Shown here: one piece after another, positions 12,454-35,461 of the stretch
Layout of the letters: the number at the start of each line of letters is the position of its first letter
Position numbering within the stretch: position 1 is the first letter of the stretch
Source of the DNA: an uncultured Ruminococcus sp.
Lineage (GTDB): Bacteria; Bacillota; Clostridia; UBA1381
Direction: 5' to 3'
NCBI GenBank assembly: GCA_902796445.1
Contig: CADBPJ010000034.1
Span: 1-38,680 of the forward strand
DNA length: 38,680 nucleotides
Program-made: the position numbers and the translations under genes
The notes under the pieces: generated by a model
What the model saw: only the letters and a program-made list of their open reading frames with translations
Told to the model about the DNA's origin: nothing
The model's database searches: none

Positions 12454-12570
12454 CCTGCCTGAGAGTGCGAGAAGCAAAGTAGATTGTCGTTATTTCAACC
12501 GAAGGTGTACTCTTGTACATCGAGGGTGAAATAGCGGCAAGATACAAAGCTTATCGCACTCTCAGGGCGG
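12454..12570. repeat. Long imperfect hairpin overlapping the end of the DUF6273 gene
   Basis: A single inverted repeat of about 117 nt with roughly 40 base pairs. The outer stem is CCTGAGAGTGCGA (12458-12470), paired with 12554-12566. The middle stem includes TATTTCA (12491-12497) with 12527-12533. The apex is TGTAC-TCTT-GTACA (12506-12519). The right arm contains the last codons and TAA of the 694-residue gene; the left arm ends about 40 nt before pncB. It lacks a following T run in either direction, so it is not a standard terminator. It could be a small MITE-like or REP-like element, an attenuator or processing site for pncB, or a recombination structure. Confidence 0.75.
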
Positions 12571-14635
12571 GTCGGATGCCTTTTTCGTTATTAACCCCTG
12601 TGTGGAGTATAAATCCGTCACTGTTCATAAACCGCATCATAGATGAATTTGATGTGTATGGACACATAACCCAATACGCATCGGAACGACTCATTTTAGA
12701 CATAATGGGCAATGTTGGGATAAACACTGTATCTGTCACGTTTTTATAGTATGCATCCTCACCGCCGTCATTAACCAAAGACGGTGTGAAGTTCCAATAA
12801 TGTGCATGGTTTCCGCCCTCTTTAGCGGCACGGTTATCGTATGTCAGAAATACCTTGTTTTGAGTATCCTCAATCCGTTCACGATCAGATGCTGAAAATT
12901 CCGTCAAAAATCCGTTATTGAGCCACTTTCGCAATTCACTCTCTTCCCAATTATTACTTTTTTCGTCAAACGGCATATAGGCTATACATTCCTTTGTAAC
13001 AAGGAGCTTTGTCCCGTCACTATATTCCTCCATAATCTCCCATTTTATGGGCTTGCCCCACAGTTTACCAAACTCAACGGTTTTATGCAAGGGTTCAATG
13101 TTTAGTACCGTCGTCACTATTGCCGTTATTGCAACTGCCTTTACTGTGGTTTTAAATCCACTGCTTACAATAGCAATAATCCCTAATGCAAAAAGTATAT
13201 CAATACAGTTTGTAAACAAGAACATATGCTTTGCTATGTCCGCCTCGCCATTGCATATAATGGGCAACAGCATATTTATCCACAAACCTAATATAAGGAT
13301 ATTCGATGCATATATCATATACTTTCGCTGTGCCGATTCGTTTTTATGGTTATGTGCATACAACACATTTAAAAATACCATATATGCAGTTATGCCGATA
13401 AACGCAATAAGCACAATCCAAGAGGTGTATAAAAATTTCAAAGATACCCTTAATTTTGACCATACACTCCATTTGCCCGTAAGCTTCATAGGTGTGTCGG
13501 TGGAGTTTCCCAAAACAGGCGGACGGATATATGATGAATTTTCAATAGCATGTATGGTTTCACGCAAAAGGCGTATCGGATGCTTTATATAAAATAAAGC
13601 AATATCGAATTTTGATACCTTGCTATAGAAATCCTCTCTGAACTCGTCTGTTTTTATATCAATGGGGTATTCGTCCTTGTCCATATATGCGTGCGTTCCT
13701 GCTAAAACTGCATATTTTTCGTCAACACCCAGCTCTCGTAAGTCGGATTTGGGATCGTCACTGTTCTGGGTTATACCCAAAAATACCGCCTGATACGTTG
13801 TATCATTATCCATCCATTCGGGGATTTCTACATATAGTGAAATAATATTTATCATGCATATTACTGCCGATAGGATTACTCCTACCCTGAATAGTTTGTC
13901 CTTACGCATTATAACCATCAATACGGCAAGGAATGCCGCAATTAATGAAAATGCTATATTTGCAAGCTTTGACCCCGCAAAGAAATACAATGCTACAAAG
14001 AACAGTATAACCTTTGGTACTGTCGGCCGTTTATATATAAGGATACCTATCGCAATCAGTAACATCAACGATGTATACTGTAATGGTTCACCATAGAATG
14101 AATTGAAATACAACAGATACCCCGCATCACAAAATATAAATAAAAATACAACAAAAACGGTTATCTGTATTTTTACGGGATAGTCAGAAAAGAATGTGAA
14201 CATTACCCATGCGGCAAACGATAGCATAAGCACATATATTATTGCCAGATATGCAATGTGATAATCAGACAGAGGTCTTCGCGTTATGGCATTGCCAATT
14301 ACGTTCATTACTTTTGACATCTTTATTATGAGGAAGTGAGGCGATTTATATATCTCCTCCTCTTTGTTCATTTTCCATGATGAGCCTATTGCTCCAAAGA
14401 ACGATTTATCATTGTCAAGAATCATCCTGTAATCTTCCTTAAAAAGGTAGTTACAATCTGTATCGTCTTTATACTCAATATTGTTCGTCAAAAGAACACG
14501 GCGAAAATCACCGTTATCGCTCAAGCCTACGTTATCGCCTGCGTATAGCACGCATACGCAGACTATAAATACAATAACCGCACCTATTATAGGAAAAATT
14601 CTTCTGCGTAACATATTCTTGTATACATTTCTCAA
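12551..14635 (-). CDS. Polytopic membrane protein with C-terminal DUF6273-like domain
   Basis: A 694-residue protein. It has an N-terminal membrane helix (about 13-31) followed by an outer loop with GLSDNGDF. Further helices spread to about residue 515. A soluble tail of about 168 residues (527-694) follows. The early acidic motif after TM1 and the long multi-pass body resemble GT-C glycosyltransferase-like proteins (for example the WsfD-type family), but I cannot prove this. The tail has the DUF6273 hallmarks SELRKWLNNGF, FSASDRERI, AYWVMCPY, NSDGFILHTG and the final GIRPALRVR. Start chosen: TTG at 14635 with AAAGAG 7 nt upstream; an ATG seven codons on (14614) lacks a site. The S1-gene terminator lies just upstream, so its promoter is unclear. 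Confidence 0.72.
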   Translation of the reverse strand: MRNVYKNMLRRRIFPIIGAVIVFIVCVCVLYAGDNVGLSDNGDFRRVLLTNNIEYKDDTDCNYLFKEDYRMILDNDKSFFGAIGSSWKMNKEEEIYKSPHFLIIKMSKVMNVIGNAITRRPLSDYHIAYLAIIYVLMLSFAAWVMFTFFSDYPVKIQITVFVVFLFIFCDAGYLLYFNSFYGEPLQYTSLMLLIAIGILIYKRPTVPKVILFFVALYFFAGSKLANIAFSLIAAFLAVLMVIMRKDKLFRVGVILSAVICMINIISLYVEIPEWMDNDTTYQAVFLGITQNSDDPKSDLRELGVDEKYAVLAGTHAYMDKDEYPIDIKTDEFREDFYSKVSKFDIALFYIKHPIRLLRETIHAIENSSYIRPPVLGNSTDTPMKLTGKWSVWSKLRVSLKFLYTSWIVLIAFIGITAYMVFLNVLYAHNHKNESAQRKYMIYASNILILGLWINMLLPIICNGEADIAKHMFLFTNCIDILFALGIIAIVSSGFKTTVKAVAITAIVTTVLNIEPLHKTVEFGKLWGKPIKWEIMEEYSDGTKLLVTKECIAYMPFDEKSNNWEESELRKWLNNGFLTEFSASDRERIEDTQNKVFLTYDNRAAKEGGNHAHYWNFTPSLVNDGGEDAYYKNVTDTVFIPTLPIMSKMSRSDAYWVMCPYTSNSSMMRFMNSDGFILHTGVNNEKGIRPALRVR

Positions 14636-25509: not shown

Positions 25510-26814
25510 TCAAGGCTTGGCACGTGATAAAAATATGAAATTCATTATCATACCTGTCATAAACGCAACATCTGAACCGATTGCGGCGCCGTATATATTG
25601 ATTTCAGGGATGGAAATGAGAAATATCGCCGATAACAGTTTTATTATACCCACAACTAATGATGATATGAACACTCTGCCTGTGTATCCCATTGCCTGTA
25701 AAACAGAGCCTGAAAACTGCATCATACATATGAAGAATACAGAGGGTGCCGCCATTTTAAGCATCAGCGAGCTTGCAGTGTTTTGAAAAAGTATCTTAAG
25801 CATCAAATCCCCAAAAACCGCAACCGATGCTGATGCAAGAAGTCCGCATATACAGCATATTCCCACACCATTTCTTGTAAGCTTTTTTACACGCTCGCTA
25901 TTACCTACGGCAACAGCTCCTGAAATTGCAGGGATAATACTTACACCTAAGGTTGCAAGCAGTCCTGCAGGCAGATTCAGCACTGTCATTGCATAGCCAG
26001 AATATGCACCATAAAGATAGCGTGCTTCACCACTCGTCAAGCCTGCACGAAGTAATCCTGTACGGATAAGCGATGTGTCGATTACAGAAATTGCCGATGT
26101 TGTTATTGCCATCAGGATAACAGGCATGGCAGTTTGGGCAATTACCTTTGTATATTCCCCGTTTTTACCTCGTTCTGACTTTATTTTTCTATGCGTAAAA
26201 TAGTATGTTCCCACAAGCATACATGCCGCCGCAAGCTCACCTGCGGTAACTCCCGAAATGGCACCTGCGGCAGATTTGTCACTGCCGTATTGTATAAGGC
26301 AAACTGCAAACATAAATCCCGCACCGAGCTTTATAAAAGCTTCTATGCATTGGGATATAGCGGTGGGAAGCATATTCCCCTCGCCCTGAAATCCGCTCTT
26401 TGCACCCTCACCCAAAGCCACAAGCATAACTGCAGGGGCAACTGCACGTATTGCCGTTGCGGCACGCTCCTCCTTCATTGCAACAGCAAGAAAATCCGCA
26501 CCGAACCACATTATAAGAGTGCCGATACAGCCTATGCCAAGTAACATAAGAGAGGAGGTGTTTACTATTGCCTTTGCACCGCCTTTATTGTTTCGGGCGA
26601 TTTCTACCGCTGTAAGCTTTGAGATTGCAAATGGTATGCCTGATACCACAAATGACAAAAGCATGGCATACACACTAAATGCAGTGTTGTAAACTGCCAT
26701 GCCTTCCTCATGAATTATGTATGTCAAAGGGATTTTTAAAACAGCACCGAGTATTTTTGAAACCGCGTTTGCCGCCATCAATATTGCCGCACCCTGTACA
26801 AAAGAATTTTTCAA
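25510..26814 (-). CDS. MATE/MOP-superfamily flippase, SpoVB/YabM-like
   Basis: A 434-residue polytopic protein with about 12 membrane helices. It begins with the SpoVB-type signature FVQGAAILMAANAVSKILGA and VLKIPLTYIIHEEGMAVYN. Conserved helices such as FVVSGIPFAISKLTAVEIA and LNLPAGLLATLGVSIIPAIS follow. Members export lipid-linked oligosaccharides; SpoVB and YabM act in spore or wall peptidoglycan and polysaccharide synthesis. The start is TTG at 26814 (MKNSFVQG), after a GGTGGTGA stretch. B. subtilis yabM directly precedes yabN/mazG; here about 7.7 kb of carbohydrate genes separate the equivalents. It is shorter than SpoVB (about 520 residues). Confidence 0.85.
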   Translation of the reverse strand: MKNSFVQGAAILMAANAVSKILGAVLKIPLTYIIHEEGMAVYNTAFSVYAMLLSFVVSGIPFAISKLTAVEIARNNKGGAKAIVNTSSLMLLGIGCIGTLIMWFGADFLAVAMKEERAATAIRAVAPAVMLVALGEGAKSGFQGEGNMLPTAISQCIEAFIKLGAGFMFAVCLIQYGSDKSAAGAISGVTAGELAAACMLVGTYYFTHRKIKSERGKNGEYTKVIAQTAMPVILMAITTSAISVIDTSLIRTGLLRAGLTSGEARYLYGAYSGYAMTVLNLPAGLLATLGVSIIPAISGAVAVGNSERVKKLTRNGVGICCICGLLASASVAVFGDLMLKILFQNTASSLMLKMAAPSVFFICMMQFSGSVLQAMGYTGRVFISSLVVGIIKLLSAIFLISIPEINIYGAAIGSDVAFMTGMIMNFIFLSRAKP

Positions 26815-28843: not shown

Positions 28844-29404
28844 ATGGCAAAGAGAACTAAAATTGTTATAATAAATTCTTTTATAAAACTTCTCAACAAG
28901 TATCCATTTGAAAAGATAAGCGTAAAAGATATTGTAGAAGACAGCGGCATCAACAGAAATACATTTTATTATAATTTTGATGATATATATGCACTTGTGG
29001 ACGAAATTCTGCAAAACGAGATGCTTGCTATTGCAGAAAAACACAGACAGCCTCATACACCTTGGAAAGAATGTCTTTTGTCTGCCGCTGAATTTGCACT
29101 TGAAAACAAAAAGGCAATTTATCATTTATATAATTCAGTTAAACGGCCGCAGTTAAAAAAATATTTTGAACGTGTGATATACCATGCTATTCTGGAATTT
29201 ACAAAAGAAAAGGCAGAAAATATAAATATAACTGAGGATGATTTGAAATTTATAGCTTTCTTTTATACAGGCGGTTTACTTGGCATAATCGAAAAATGGC
29301 TTGAGTCCGGTATGACAGAGGATTTTGATGATATCATCGACAAAACGGGATTCCTGTTCGATCGAAATATTACCCATGCAATAGACCTCATACTAAAAAC
29401 CTGA
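28844..29404 (+). CDS. TetR/AcrR-family transcriptional regulator
   Basis: A 186-residue TetR-type repressor. The N-terminal helix-turn-helix reads FIKLLNKYPFEKISVKDIVE then DSGINRNTFYYNFDDIYALV, a clear match to the family. The C-terminal ligand/dimer domain is helical (about residues 60-186) with a TetR_C-like ending (FIAFFYTGGLLGIIEKWLES). The frame is open 20 codons earlier, but ATG 28844 follows AAAGGAG at a 7-nt spacing. A strong terminator separates it from the MMPL gene, whose own promoter contains a palindrome, so the protein probably represses that transcript and perhaps itself. The inducer is unknown. Confidence 0.93.
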   Translation: MAKRTKIVIINSFIKLLNKYPFEKISVKDIVEDSGINRNTFYYNFDDIYALVDEILQNEMLAIAEKHRQPHTPWKECLLSAAEFALENKKAIYHLYNSVKRPQLKKYFERVIYHAILEFTKEKAENINITEDDLKFIAFFYTGGLLGIIEKWLESGMTEDFDDIIDKTGFLFDRNITHAIDLILKT

Positions 29405-29436
29405 CGGACTGCATTTTGCAGTTCATCAGGTTTTTT
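29400..29436 (+). terminator. Rho-independent terminator of tetR
   Basis: CCTGA-c-GGACTGCA (29400-29413) folds on TGCAGTTC-a-TCAGG (29417-29430). This gives a 14-position stem with one mismatch, loop TTT, then six T (29431-29436). The stem begins inside the tetR stop region. It separates tetR from the MMPL operon. Confidence 0.92.
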
Positions 29437-29460: not shown

Positions 29461-29489
29461 TTTACATAATATCTGTATTATGGTAAAAT
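29461..29489 (+). promoter_or_regulatory. Promoter of the MMPL-GLUG operon with a palindromic operator
   Basis: TTTACA (29461-29466), 17-nt spacer, TAAAAT (29484-29489). The spacer holds a perfect inverted repeat CATAATA-TCTG-TATTATG (29465-29482). A TetR dimer bound there would block RNA polymerase. The size (18 bp) and position fit a TetR-family operator. Confidence 0.7.
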
Positions 29490-29522
29490 AATTGGATAAA
29501 ACGCAGAAAGAGGGATTATGGT

Positions 29523-31976
29523 ATGAAAAAAGAAAAGAACAGCAAAAACTCTTTTTTTGTCAAGCTATCTACTGTAATTGTTGATAAACGAAATATTATT
29601 TTAGTCTTATACGTTGCCGCATTTATTTTTTCAATGATTTCAAAAAATTGGGTGGCAGTTTGCGATGACATAACCTCATATCTACCCAAAAATACCGAAA
29701 CACGCCAAGGTCTTACCATAATGGAGGACGAATTTACAACATATGCCACCTCCAAGGTTATGGTTATAAATACCACATATGATGAAGCAAAGGATATAGA
29801 AACAAAACTTAAAGAATTAGACAGTGTAAGCATTGTGGCTTTTGACGACAGCGAGGACCATTACAAGGACGGCTGTGCCCTTTTTGATATTACGCTTACC
29901 ACCGAGGAGGGTGACCCGAAAACGCAAGAGGGATACAGCGAAATACGGGAAATTCTCTCCGATTATGATACATACATTTCCGAAAGCGATTCGGACGATT
30001 CTGCCGCCCTTGATTCGGAAATGAATGTTGTATTTTTAATAGCCGCCGTTATAATTGTATCGGTACTGTTATTCACATCGCAGACCTATGCTGAAGTGCC
30101 TGTTATGATACTTACATTTATAACCGCCGCAATTCTCAATACCGGTACAAACTTTTTCCTCGGCGAAATCTCATTTGTATCAAATTCAGTAACAACCATC
30201 TTACAGCTTGCTTTGTCTATAGACTATGCAATTATAATGATACATCATTACAGTGAAGAACGGGAACACCGCAAGCAAAGAGATGCGGTAATCTATGCTC
30301 TTTCAAAATCCATACCAGAAATTTCTGCAAGCTCTCTGACCACAATATCAGGTCTTGCCGCACTGATGTTTATGCAGTTTAAAATAGGCTTTGATATGGG
30401 AATTTGTCTGATTAAGGCTATTGCGTTAAGCCTTTTGAGTGTATTTACTATGATGCCGTGTCTTTTGATGCTGTTTGGAAAATACATAGACAAAACTCAC
30501 CACAAAAATATCGTACCCGATATTTCGGGACTTGGCAGTATAGTATACAAGCTCAGAGTTATCGTACCGCCAATTTTTGTTGCAGTAATTATCAGTGCAT
30601 ACTTTATTTCCTCACACTGTCCATATGTATATGATTTATCCTCCCCAAAAACCGATCGTCAAAACGAAATTCAGATTGCACAGCGAATGATAGACGATAC
30701 ATTCGGTTCAGAAAATATGGCGGCACTCGTATTTCCGACAGGTGACTATGACAAAGAAAAAGCACTGATAAAGGAACTCGAAACATATGATGAAATAGTA
30801 TCAATAACGGCACTTTCAAGTGTTGAGGCAAGCGACGGATACGTTCTTACTGATAAGCTCACACCGCGTCAGTTTGCCGAACTTACCGACATTGATATTG
30901 AACTTTCAAAGCTTTTATATGCAACCTATGCCACAGACCACGAGGATTACAGTCAACTCGTGGGAAATATGGAAAATTTCGGTGTTCCGCTGATTGATAT
31001 GTTCAGTTTCGTCTATGACTTAAAAGAGGACGGATATGTACATTTTGACTCAGATGTTGACGAGGCTTTGGATAATTTACATATACAGCTTGACAATGCA
31101 AAAAAGCAGCTTTCAGGCGATAAATATGCAAGAATGCTTGTCTATTTGGACTTGCCCACAGAGGGAGAGGAAACCTTTGCATTTATTGACACAGTACACA
31201 ACATATGCAAAAAATATTATGATGAGTCATACTTTGTAGGCAACTCCACAAGCAGTTATGACCTGTCAACGTCCTTTGCCAAGGATAATATAATAGTAAG
31301 TGTTCTGTCAATATTATTCGTTATAGCGGTACTGTTCTTTACATTTAAAAGTGCAGGTCTGCCGATACTGCTTATTGCTGTTATACAAGGCAGTATATGG
31401 ATCAATTTCTCCTTACCTACAATTACGGGCAATCCTATGTATTTTCTGAGCTACCTGATAGTAAGTTCAATACAAATGGGAGCAAATATTGACTACGCAA
31501 TCGTTATATCAAGCCGATATATGGAACTTCGAGGGAAAGTGCCCATAAAAAAAGCTATGCAGAACAGTCTGAATTTTGCATTCCCGACAGTCTTAACATC
31601 AGGAAGTATTCTGGCGTCGGCAGGATTTCTTATAGGAAAGCTCTCTACACAGACGGCCATAGTTTCAATAGGAAAGTCTCTATGTTCGGGAACGCTCATT
31701 TCCATGTTCCTGGTAATGTGTGTACTGCCTGAAATACTGCTTTTAGGTGATACAATAATCGAAAAGACAAAGGTTACTATAAACACACCCGAAATTGTAC
31801 ATAAAGAAACAGGCAGATTTGTGGTCAACGGCCGCGTCAGAGGCTATATTAACGGATATGTCGATGCTGATATTCATGGCGTTGTACGAGGCGATATGTC
31901 CGCAAATGTAAATATAAATAATATTTTACCAAAATCAGAGGAGGGAGAAACAGACAATCAACCGAATGAAGAATAG
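29523..31976 (+). CDS. MMPL/RND-superfamily transporter with bactofilin-like tail
   Basis: An 817-residue integral membrane protein with the internal duplication of RND/MMPL exporters. TM1 (about 24-42) is followed by a large outer loop, then a block of helices with LALSIDYAIIMIHHY (D234). A second outer loop (about 360-580) and a second block with QMGANIDYAIVISSRY (D657) follow. The paired I-D-Y motifs match the proton-relay positions in this superfamily. Residues about 762-803, past the last helix and expected inside the cell, form short hydrophobic/Gly-Asn repeats (FVVNGRVRGYINGYVDADIH, then GVVRGDM) much like bactofilin beta-helix rungs. Substrate unknown; MMPL proteins move lipids or large hydrophobic molecules. 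The gene overlaps the next one by 11 nt. Confidence 0.9.
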   Translation: MKKEKNSKNSFFVKLSTVIVDKRNIILVLYVAAFIFSMISKNWVAVCDDITSYLPKNTETRQGLTIMEDEFTTYATSKVMVINTTYDEAKDIETKLKELDSVSIVAFDDSEDHYKDGCALFDITLTTEEGDPKTQEGYSEIREILSDYDTYISESDSDDSAALDSEMNVVFLIAAVIIVSVLLFTSQTYAEVPVMILTFITAAILNTGTNFFLGEISFVSNSVTTILQLALSIDYAIIMIHHYSEEREHRKQRDAVIYALSKSIPEISASSLTTISGLAALMFMQFKIGFDMGICLIKAIALSLLSVFTMMPCLLMLFGKYIDKTHHKNIVPDISGLGSIVYKLRVIVPPIFVAVIISAYFISSHCPYVYDLSSPKTDRQNEIQIAQRMIDDTFGSENMAALVFPTGDYDKEKALIKELETYDEIVSITALSSVEASDGYVLTDKLTPRQFAELTDIDIELSKLLYATYATDHEDYSQLVGNMENFGVPLIDMFSFVYDLKEDGYVHFDSDVDEALDNLHIQLDNAKKQLSGDKYARMLVYLDLPTEGEETFAFIDTVHNICKKYYDESYFVGNSTSSYDLSTSFAKDNIIVSVLSILFVIAVLFFTFKSAGLPILLIAVIQGSIWINFSLPTITGNPMYFLSYLIVSSIQMGANIDYAIVISSRYMELRGKVPIKKAMQNSLNFAFPTVLTSGSILASAGFLIGKLSTQTAIVSIGKSLCSGTLISMFLVMCVLPEILLLGDTIIEKTKVTINTPEIVHKETGRFVVNGRVRGYINGYVDADIHGVVRGDMSANVNINNILPKSEEGETDNQPNEE

Positions 31977-34900
31977 ATATATAGCTACTTTACTTACTTT
32001 TGTGTTTGTGTTTTTAATATGTCTTCCGCTTTTTACGGTAAACGCTGCCGATACAATCACGATTAAAACAACAGACGATTACCTGGAACTTGCAAAAAAC
32101 TGCAAAACAGACACATGGTCAGAAGATAAAACAGTAGTGTTGGAAAACGATATTGACCTTTCGGACATTAATTTTGTGCCTATCCCCACTTTCTCGGGCG
32201 TATTCATGGGAAATGGCCATACAATATCGGGCGTAGATATTAATTCAAAAGGCTCTCATCAGGGACTTTTCCGATATATCCAAAAAGACGGACGTATTGA
32301 AAATCTTACGGTTGAAGGAACAATAACACCCTTAGGAACGAGAAAATTCATAGGCGGGATTGCAGGCGAACTCAGGGGTATAATTACTAACTGTACATTT
32401 AACGGCACTGTCTCGGGAGATTCTTCTGTCGGCGGTATTTGCGGTTATATAACCGACAGCGGTCAGATTATATCCTCTTATTCCTATGGTAATATCACGG
32501 GCAAAAGCTACACAGGCGGTATTTGCGGTCAGAATTACGGGGCTGTAGAGCTGTGTGAAAACTATGCTGATGTAAATACTACTGACAACGAGGAAGAGAA
32601 AACCATCCAGGATATAAGCAATATTGACCTTTCTGCAATAGGCAAAACCGAAAGCATCAATACAAACACCGACACAGGCGGTATTTGCGGATACCTCAAA
32701 GGAAAAATAAAAGATTGTAAAAATTCAGGTAACATAGGATACAGATCTATAGGCTATAATACAGGCGGTATTTGCGGAAGAAGTGCAGGATATATTGTAA
32801 ACTGCGAAAATAAAGGTATAATAAACGGCAGAAAGGACATAGGCGGTATTTGCGGGCAGGCAGAGCCTTACGTTATGCTTGAATATTCCGACAGTGTTTT
32901 AGAAGACATCAAAAATACACTCAATAATATAAAAGATACTGTCAATTCGGGTAATGGGTCTCATAATATAGACGATGTTTTAGGCGATATAACCGACAGA
33001 GTTGCTCTAATATCGGACGATGTAACAGCATATGCAAACGATATTACCGAAGAGACAAACAATATGCTGGATAGAATTCATTACGCACTTCAGGAGTCGG
33101 AGTCGGTATTTACCAATATGTCAGATGGCATTGACCAAATGGCGGCAGGGCTTAGCGACTTTAAACAAGCAGGAGATGAAATCAATACTGCTATAAATGA
33201 ATTGAATAATTCTCCCGGTATGGATGATCAGACAAAAAGCACTGCCTTAGAAGCTATCAGACACTTAAAAGTTTCATCAAAGCAATTATCAAGGGCATTG
33301 GCTAACCTTCAGGAATGTATAGATATTCTCATAGACGGAAAAAACCAATTAAATACAGCTATTGATAATTTGGAAAATGCATTAGTCGGACGTACTGATA
33401 TTGAAAACGCTTTTACAAATGTTGCCAACAGTCTTGATACGATTATAAATGCATTCATCTCAGCAAGCAATTCAATAAGCGATATAACAGAAATTTTAGA
33501 AGAACTGAAAAATCAAGGGTACATAGACAACATTTCAAACAATGCTATTGATGATTTAAAAGCTCTGTCACAAAAATTTAATGAGGTAAAAAAAGCTTTG
33601 GGGCAAGTCCGTGATGCTGTACTGTTTTTGGGGGACAATGCAAGTATCAGGTATATGGGAGATTCTTTTTATTATTTTAGCGATGCATTTCTAAACTTGT
33701 CTATTGCCTTTGGCGAGATACATGATATAGTGGAGCGTTTGGATAATTCTTTAGAATTTGGCGATGCAAACGATGCCTTAGAGAGGGCAATCAATTCTTT
33801 GAAAGACGGATGTACCGATTTTGAGAGTGGTGCAAATTCACTCTCAACCGTTTCTGACGAACTAAACAGGATTATACAGGACATCTCCGAGGGCGACACA
33901 ATCACTCTTCCCTCTGTAAGCGAATCATTTTCCGACAATATAGACGGGCTTGAAAACTCCATTGATAATATGCGTAACGAAATTTCGTCCCTGAAGGATA
34001 ATGTTGCCGATAATATAAACAATATGACCGATCAACTAAGTCTTTTATCCGACATAATTTCAGATGCTTATACGGATAGCCTTGATAATGACAAAAAAGA
34101 TTATTACGAGGATATTTCCGACTATGACATAAGCGGTAACACCAAGGGCAGAATTGAAAAATCAAATAACAGAGCCTCTGTTTTTGGCGATGTTAATGTC
34201 GGCGGAATTGTCGGCTCAATGGCAATCGAATATGACTTTGACCCCGAGGACGACATTCCCAAAAGCGGAGATAAATCCATAAAATTCACTTACAAGACAA
34301 AATGTATCGTAAGACATTGTACAAACGATGCCGAGATAACCTCAAAGAAAAACTACAGTGGAGGTATCTGCGGAAGAATGGATTTGGGCAGTATACTCTC
34401 CTGCGACAATTACGGAAAAGTAATCAGCAAAGACGGCGGTTACATAGGCGGAATTGCAGGCAAGTCCGATACAATAATCAGAAATTCCGCTTCAAAATGT
34501 ACGCTTTCGGGTAACGATTACGTAGGCGGAATTGCAGGTCAAGCATCGAAAATCGTCAACTGTCAGACACTTGTTCATATCGAGAAAAGCGATGAGTTCA
34601 CAGGTGCTATAGCAGGTGATGCTGACACGGATAATCTCTCAAATAACTATTGCATAAATGACGATTTAGGGGCTATTGACGATATCAATTACACAGGAAT
34701 TGCAGAGCCAGGAACCATTGATAGATTTGTTGCTTTTGTTGACAATAATTTCAATAAGGACGTTTTCTTTACTTTGAGATTTTTTGCAGATGATGAGAAA
34801 GTTGCAGAACTGACTTACAGCTACAAAGCATCTATCCCTGATAATGAAATCCCTGTTGTACCCGAAAAGAAAGGACATTACGGCAAATGGAGCGACTATA

Positions 34901-35349
34901 ATTTTAAAGAAGTAACATATGATGCAGTTATAACTGCAGAATATAACCGCAATATGGATATTATCGCCTCCGACACAAAAAGGGATAACGAAAAATCTGT
35001 TATTCTTGTGTGCGGCACCTTTGACGATACGGCAAGTGTTTCTGCCGTTGGTGCCGGCGACAGCACAGCCATTGACAGCTACGACGTTAATATAAACGGA
35101 GTTTATACCGAAGCCTACACTGTCAGATATCTTCCTAAATCCGATAAAAAGGTGAACCTTTATATTGACGGAGAAAAGGTATCTTCTAAAAAGTATGGCA
35201 GATATTTAGAGTTCAGAACGGACACACCTGTATTCAGACTCTCTGAAAAAAAGAAAAATAATACAGCGATTTATATTTGTATTGCTTTAGGGATTGTTTT
35301 AATTCTTGCAGGAATGGCTATAATACTAAAAAGAAAAAAACTTAAATAG
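31966..35349 (+). CDS. Large exported GLUG-repeat/coiled-coil protein with C-terminal membrane anchor
   Basis: A 1127-residue protein. Order: signal peptide (1-28, ending VNAA); beta-rich lead-in; six GLUG-type repeats with the core GGI-x-G at about 130, 156, 184, 238, 267 and 293; a long alpha-helical, probably coiled-coil region (about 305-725). Four more GGI-x-G repeats follow at about 746, 799, 828 and 854. Then come a Listeria-Bacteroides-repeat-like stretch, a beta domain, one membrane helix (AIYICIALGIVLILAGMAII, about 1098-1120) and a basic tail KRKKLK. It starts inside the transporter gene (11-nt overlap) with a distant GGAGG, so translation is coupled. Probably an outside-facing, membrane-tethered partner or periplasmic-space adaptor of the MMPL transporter. 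Function unknown. Confidence 0.85.
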   Translation: MKNRYIATLLTFVFVFLICLPLFTVNAADTITIKTTDDYLELAKNCKTDTWSEDKTVVLENDIDLSDINFVPIPTFSGVFMGNGHTISGVDINSKGSHQGLFRYIQKDGRIENLTVEGTITPLGTRKFIGGIAGELRGIITNCTFNGTVSGDSSVGGICGYITDSGQIISSYSYGNITGKSYTGGICGQNYGAVELCENYADVNTTDNEEEKTIQDISNIDLSAIGKTESINTNTDTGGICGYLKGKIKDCKNSGNIGYRSIGYNTGGICGRSAGYIVNCENKGIINGRKDIGGICGQAEPYVMLEYSDSVLEDIKNTLNNIKDTVNSGNGSHNIDDVLGDITDRVALISDDVTAYANDITEETNNMLDRIHYALQESESVFTNMSDGIDQMAAGLSDFKQAGDEINTAINELNNSPGMDDQTKSTALEAIRHLKVSSKQLSRALANLQECIDILIDGKNQLNTAIDNLENALVGRTDIENAFTNVANSLDTIINAFISASNSISDITEILEELKNQGYIDNISNNAIDDLKALSQKFNEVKKALGQVRDAVLFLGDNASIRYMGDSFYYFSDAFLNLSIAFGEIHDIVERLDNSLEFGDANDALERAINSLKDGCTDFESGANSLSTVSDELNRIIQDISEGDTITLPSVSESFSDNIDGLENSIDNMRNEISSLKDNVADNINNMTDQLSLLSDIISDAYTDSLDNDKKDYYEDISDYDISGNTKGRIEKSNNRASVFGDVNVGGIVGSMAIEYDFDPEDDIPKSGDKSIKFTYKTKCIVRHCTNDAEITSKKNYSGGICGRMDLGSILSCDNYGKVISKDGGYIGGIAGKSDTIIRNSASKCTLSGNDYVGGIAGQASKIVNCQTLVHIEKSDEFTGAIAGDADTDNLSNNYCINDDLGAIDDINYTGIAEPGTIDRFVAFVDNNFNKDVFFTLRFFADDEKVAELTYSYKASIPDNEIPVVPEKKGHYGKWSDYNFKEVTYDAVITAEYNRNMDIIASDTKRDNEKSVILVCGTFDDTASVSAVGAGDSTAIDSYDVNINGVYTEAYTVRYLPKSDKKVNLYIDGEKVSSKKYGRYLEFRTDTPVFRLSEKKKNNTAIYICIALGIVLILAGMAIILKRKKLK

Positions 35350-35355
35350 AATTAT

Positions 35356-35430
35356 GGGTTTGTAAAAACAGCATTGACCGTTTAAACAGCTATCGGTTAC
35401 GCTTTGTTTTTATAAACCCTCTCTTTTTTT
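35356..35430 (+). terminator. Large rho-independent terminator of the MMPL-GLUG operon
   Basis: GGGTTTGTAAAAACA (35356-35370) pairs with TGTTTTTATAAACCC (35405-35419) over 15 positions, with one G-T pair. It encloses a smaller ACCG/CGGT stem. TCTCTTTTTTT (35420-35430) follows. It cleanly separates this operon from gltX. Confidence 0.85.
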
Positions 35431-35461
35431 GCAAAAAATTGCGACTTTTCGCTTTTTTTAC

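Follow-up and report, generated by a model that had tools for sequence, protein, structure and literature searches.

A conserved MMPL transporter and its large GLUG/coiled-coil surface partner in Clostridia: a probable two-component exporter

A gene for a transporter of the MMPL/RND family that overlaps one for a large surface protein raises the question of whether the two products work as a single envelope machine. In Gram-positive bacteria, RND and MMPL pumps are usually regarded as proteins that work alone. The gene pair studied here lies in a stretch of 38,680 nucleotides (hereafter the window), contig C34 of a draft genome of an uncultured Ruminococcus sp. (2.2 Mb in 327 contigs), and a preliminary description of this DNA had proposed that the second protein either spans from membrane to wall or serves as an outer conduit.

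In the window the MMPL transporter is encoded at 29523-31976 (+) and its partner at 31966-35349 (+), the two genes sharing 11 nt. Upstream lies the gene for a TetR-family regulator (28844-29404, +; 186 aa from its ATG), which Pfam and NCBIfam describe as DhaS-like with TetR_N and TetR_C_8 domains (Pfam, 28.5 bits against a gathering threshold of 24 and 79.8 against 26.1, respectively). The strong intrinsic terminator of this gene, with a 10+8 bp stem and a T-run (29395-29436, +; folding z -9.1), parts it from a putative sigma-70-like promoter of the MMPL operon (TTTACA-17-TAAAAT; 29461-29489, +), assigned by consensus match only, and a second terminator, with a hairpin at 35356-35419 followed by a T-run (35356-35431, +; -25.5 kcal/mol, z -5.4), closes the operon. 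This arrangement implies that the MMPL and partner genes form a transcription unit of their own. The regulator gene, the 817-residue transporter, the overlapping gene for an 1127-residue protein and the strong closing terminator, all named in the preliminary description, were confirmed by Pfam, by their coordinates and by folding. The downstream gene reads as a glutamyl/glutaminyl-tRNA synthetase and the nearest upstream ones as a sugar mutarotase and, from its translation, an EPSP synthase, neighbors that do not hint at a larger cluster. Elsewhere in the window, a surface-glycan gene at 12554-14635 (-) matched the WsfD model for a glycan biosynthesis hexose transferase (321 bits against a cut-off of 80), and a SpoVB-like flippase at 25513-26814 (-) reached 225 bits, below the model cut-off of 372.

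The evidence that the two proteins belong together comes from their distribution. The partner was searched for in its own taxonomic family, where 30 homologues were found, and across about 85,000 species genomes, where 80 further loci came up. The named hosts of these 80 loci were all Clostridia (Lachnospiraceae, Oscillospiraceae, Peptococcaceae, Vallitalea, Oceanirhabdus, Acidaminobacter and Cellulosilyticum). An MMPL gene lay directly upstream of the partner gene, on the same strand, in all 79 informative loci of the wide scan; 78 were counted by script and the other was L072, whose adjacent 889-aa MMPL has a long tail beyond the script's distance limit, while L084, which starts at a contig end, was uninformative. 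Within the own family, the partner was found directly behind the MMPL gene in 29 of 29 informative copies, one further copy being located at a contig end. The two genes typically overlap, in most pairs by between a few and a few tens of bases; the larger values are upper limits, since starts were called mechanically. When the neighboring genes of the 80 loci were clustered, the MMPL gene emerged as the sole near-universal neighbor of the partner, and no lipid-synthesis gene recurred near it.

The converse was also found. Five MMPL proteins in a sample of 299 genomes of the phylum, that of the window included, aligned near full length at an identity of at least 46%, and each had the partner next door, whereas the fetched loci of paralogues of ~700 aa (about 25-33% identity) had no partner within 1.5 kb. 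Of the 37 genomes in the order that were at least 90% complete, 19 carried the MMPL clade; for the orthologues that were cross-checked or fetched, a partner match was found at adjacent coordinates, the sole exception in view (G049:C83) sitting at a contig edge. In Clostridia the pairing of MMPL and partner is near-absolute in both directions, and the expectation of the preliminary description that the two belong together was borne out by this neighborhood check. The pairwise distances of the two proteins also correlated (r=0.94, 76 loci), a minor support as it is expected for any co-inherited pair and is confounded by common descent; nearest neighbors agreed in only 41 of the 76. Covariation between the proteins, calculated from 66 non-redundant pairs, was dominated by phylogeny, since scores between the proteins ranged no differently from those within them and individual columns each paired with many others.

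The transporter, of the HAE2/HAE3-like MMPL/RND type, carries the MMPL domain in two stretches (Pfam E=8.5e-39; 133.8 bits against a cut-off of 20.5), and its AF2 model (pLDDT 80) predicts a 12-TM RND fold with large ectodomains after TM1 and TM7. The best Foldseek matches of this model were MmpL5, MmpL4, MmpL3 and HpnN, with Dispatched also among the fold matches; the closest solved folds were those of MmpL4 and MmpL5 (E 2e-24, TM about 0.65), at a sequence identity of about 14%. None of the named MMPL subfamilies or equivalogs (MmpL3, HpnN, ActII, HAE3 transporter) scored above its NCBIfam cut-off, the best being TIGR00921 with 116.4 bits against 351.9. In MmpL3, Asp-Tyr pairs in TM4 and TM10 serve the proton relay; the corresponding residues here, D234-Y235 and D657-Y658, were invariant in 42 orthologue sequences.

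Ectodomain 2 contains a helical insertion of ~98 aa (residues 434-531; 30822-31115, +), delimited by the model, by conservation and by the breaks at this point in alignments with paralogues of ~30% identity. Its length is nearly fixed in partner-linked MMPL proteins (98-104 aa), and its conservation is 0.67 compared with 0.60 in the preceding part of the same ectodomain. Judged by these alignments, the insertion is a clade-specific mark of the partner-linked MMPL, and it is a candidate docking surface for the partner. As a second mark of the clade, at the C-terminal end of the protein, a predicted cytosolic beta tail (residues 758-797; 31794-31913, +) shows a G-x-V/I-x-G repeat that resembles bactofilin-type rungs; the tail is kept in most orthologues across Clostridia and is missing in one sub-clade. 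Kinship with bactofilins was considered for this alike pattern and discarded, as the tail had no Pfam match.

The partner has only two hydrophobic segments, a signal peptide (residues 1-27; 31966-32046, +) and one C-terminal TM helix with a short Lys-rich cytosolic end (residues 1100-1126; 35263-35343, +). It is thus best described as a secreted protein with a C-terminal anchor; the earlier label 'exported, tail-anchored' holds as to export and the C-terminal TM, and the N-terminal signal segment speaks against a strict tail anchor. According to the model, the signal peptide is followed by the first half of a beta-solenoid with GLUG repeats (residues 28-301; 32047-32868, +), by a coiled-coil insertion of ~400 aa (residues 309-707; 32890-34086, +), by the second solenoid half (residues 716-930; 34111-34755, +), also placed by structural alignment and conservation, and by membrane-proximal beta domains (residues 931-1098; 34756-35259, +). 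GLUG was recognized by Pfam in the partner (E=1.9e-10; 40.9 bits against a gathering threshold of 20.5) and in 29 of 38 homologues. The best structural match of the solenoid was the GLUG beta-helix of M26 IgA1 proteases (VIA-align Z 25.9, rmsd 2.7, 257 residues), and phage tailspikes as well as depolymerases could be aligned to residues 28-915 (Z 15-17); as these matches run across the insertion, they suggest one right-handed beta-solenoid interrupted by helices. In contrast to the M26 proteases, the partner has a coiled-coil insertion and is linked to an MMPL gene, and no Pfam match to the M26 protease domain was found along its whole length at E<=0.1.

The coiled coil announced in the preliminary description was recovered as eight predicted helices, with a hydrophobic periodicity of 3.5 residues in the family average and an AF2 confidence that is moderate to low. 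It is the least conserved extracellular domain of the partner (0.33), with a length of 335-584 aa among homologues, while the solenoid halves are constant in length and better conserved (0.61 and 0.58). Matches of the partner to SMC, EzrA, MCE and apolipoprotein models of Pfam and NCBIfam were mostly below cut-off and looked like generic coiled-coil similarity, and were set aside. A likeness to YhgE/Pip envelope proteins, which the preliminary description had named, was not upheld: like the partner, they are membrane proteins whose coiled coil is long and extracytoplasmic, but the partner combines a solenoid with only one TM, at its C terminus, and YhgE/Pip models of Pfam and NCBIfam matched neither it nor appeared among the families listed for the 38 homologues. 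A PDB sequence search gave no match, and Foldseek with the whole partner model returned nothing at E<=0.001, results that give no evidence of a new fold.

We consider it reasonably probable that the MMPL protein and its partner make up one two-component RND exporter of monoderm Clostridia, in which the partner would receive or guide the substrate outside the membrane. Going by what is known of the family, the pump would be driven by a proton relay through its two Asp-Tyr pairs and would move a hydrophobic molecule, perhaps a lipid, a fatty acid, an amphipathic metabolite or a drug, from the membrane into the ectodomain cavity. The secreted partner, held at the outer face by its one C-terminal helix, would dock on the MMPL ectodomains via its rigid solenoid or its membrane-proximal domains, probably at the helical insertion of ectodomain 2, and its long coiled coil may project into the wall and carry or guide the substrate off the membrane. 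The operon might be induced through TetR.

The closest precedent is mycobacterial. In MmpL5, ectodomain 2 carries an inserted coiled coil of 196 aa; it is predicted to assemble into a trimeric tube of 13 nm, and deletion of the coil abolishes efflux. MmpS5 stabilizes the MmpL5 trimers and is required for trimerization and activity (PMC12501195). The MmpL4/5-MmpS4/5 exporters of siderophores and drugs resemble the clostridial pair in their operon with a one-TM partner bearing an extracytoplasmic domain, in the presence of an extracytoplasmic coiled coil in the system and in the extra sequence of ectodomain 2. However, in Clostridia the coil belongs to the partner, inserted in its solenoid, while ectodomain 2 of the pump holds the short-helix domain of ~98 aa; moreover, MmpS4/5 are small (~140 aa) and Ig-like, in contrast to a partner of 1127 aa built of solenoid and coil in a monoderm host. 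The long coil resides in an obligately linked partner and only a short helical domain in the pump; most simply read, the partner would provide the coil in trans, as a counterpart of the built-in coiled-coil tube thought to act in MmpL4/5, with the insertion as the docking site.

The predicted models are compatible with the earlier proposal of a bridge between membrane and wall or an outer conduit. In a more specific form, the inserted helices would make an alpha-helical barrel or tube, acting in trans as a conduit through which the pump's hydrophobic cargo crosses the peptidoglycan; we regard this as doubtful. Only one result hints, weakly, at a helical barrel: residues 376-643 matched a designed antiparallel six-helix barrel (Z 19.2), and the helical model behind this match is of moderate confidence. 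If it existed, such a conduit would correspond, in a one-membrane cell, to tripartite RND systems and to the MmpL5 tube.

The variability of the coil in sequence and length is more in keeping with a spacer than with a channel for a specific substrate, and it would also fit a scaffold. The partner could accordingly be an assembly factor that holds or oligomerizes the MMPL protein and tethers it to peptidoglycan, the substrate being released at the membrane surface. The conservation of the solenoid, the C-terminal anchor with its membrane-proximal beta domains, and the precedent of MmpS5 (PMC12501195) make this alternative possible, if still somewhat unlikely, considering that a size of 1100-1300 aa far exceeds that of known MMPL accessory proteins and that Pfam recognized no peptidoglycan-binding domain in the partner. 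One-to-one pairing would also be expected of a dedicated maturation factor, so the relation could be reversed: the MMPL protein, like SecDF or Dispatched, would help to release, fold or lipid-load a partner that is itself an adhesin or wall protein. GLUG beta-solenoids do occur in surface proteins such as the IgA1 proteases, and Dispatched was among the fold matches of the pump. We find this improbable, given that the signal peptide and the anchor of the partner are of ordinary type and that other GLUG reading frames in the own family match it by the solenoid only.

It is likewise improbable that the transporter is an ordinary inducible efflux pump, expelling antimicrobial fatty acids or similar compounds sensed by TetR, and that the partner is a co-regulated envelope-stress protein making no contact with it. 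No FarE-type pump is known to need a second gene, and the near-absolute pairing, together with a gene overlap that implies translational coupling, argues against this reading. In its favor, FarR/FarE of Staphylococcus aureus couples a TetR regulator to an adjacent Gram-positive MMPL-type RND pump and acts on linoleic acid (PMC10019231). The description consulted mentions no large solenoid/coiled-coil partner for this system, and FarR is divergent, whereas the TetR gene of the window is co-directional and has its own terminator. A TetR gene adjoins the operon in the window and, divergent and upstream, in 20 of the 66 homologous loci with enough upstream sequence, most homologues having no TetR nearby; TetR is an optional neighbor of the MMPL-partner operon. 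Control of the operon by TetR, as in the preliminary description, is no more than plausible, by analogy with FarR-FarE. The regulator gene and its recurrence beside homologous operons stand, and an operator role of the palindrome is unsupported: CATAATA-TCTG-TATTATG does exist within the promoter, between the -35 and -10-like boxes (29465-29482), but a 7-nt arm was equalled in 7% of promoter shuffles, and the palindrome is absent from L149, the closest relative, which has a co-directional TetR 55% identical to that of the window.

Judged by sequence similarity, the transporter is a member of the known MMPL/RND family and the solenoid is of the known GLUG type. Neither Pfam nor NCBIfam offers a model for the combination, their curated models recognizing only 'MMPL' and 'GLUG', and in the open-access literature we found no paper joining GLUG with MMPL, MMPL with a Gram-positive beta-helix, or MMPL-family operons in Lachnospiraceae. 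The petrobactin exporter ApeX of Bacillus anthracis is likewise an MMPL-like RND pump, and its host is Gram-positive; the authors of that study left open whether accessory proteins are needed and found no candidate accessory gene in an operon (PMC5596346), in contrast to the Clostridia, where an accessory-type gene is always present beside the MMPL gene. The pairing bears on that open question. It defines an MMPL clade with an obligate large surface partner, two uncharacterized families widespread in gut, rumen and other Clostridia, and provides a testable case of how a monoderm passes bulky hydrophobic molecules beyond its wall. Our results suggest that Clostridia with a single membrane evolved a two-part exporter of their own; we found no description of such a partnership in the open-access literature searched.

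Some homologues of the partner depart from the usual form. The homologue at L098:6836-12469 is an open frame of ~1877 aa with a long extension past the usual C-terminal TM, and in L014 (G053:C39:29714-33195) the partner is split in two frames beside the MMPL gene, possibly through a frameshift or an assembly error. A Candidatus Oscillibacter pullicola MAG carries two copies of the operon (L102 and L105), whose distance is 0.34 in the partner and 0.14 in the MMPL protein, a comparison suggesting that the partner may diversify faster than the pump.
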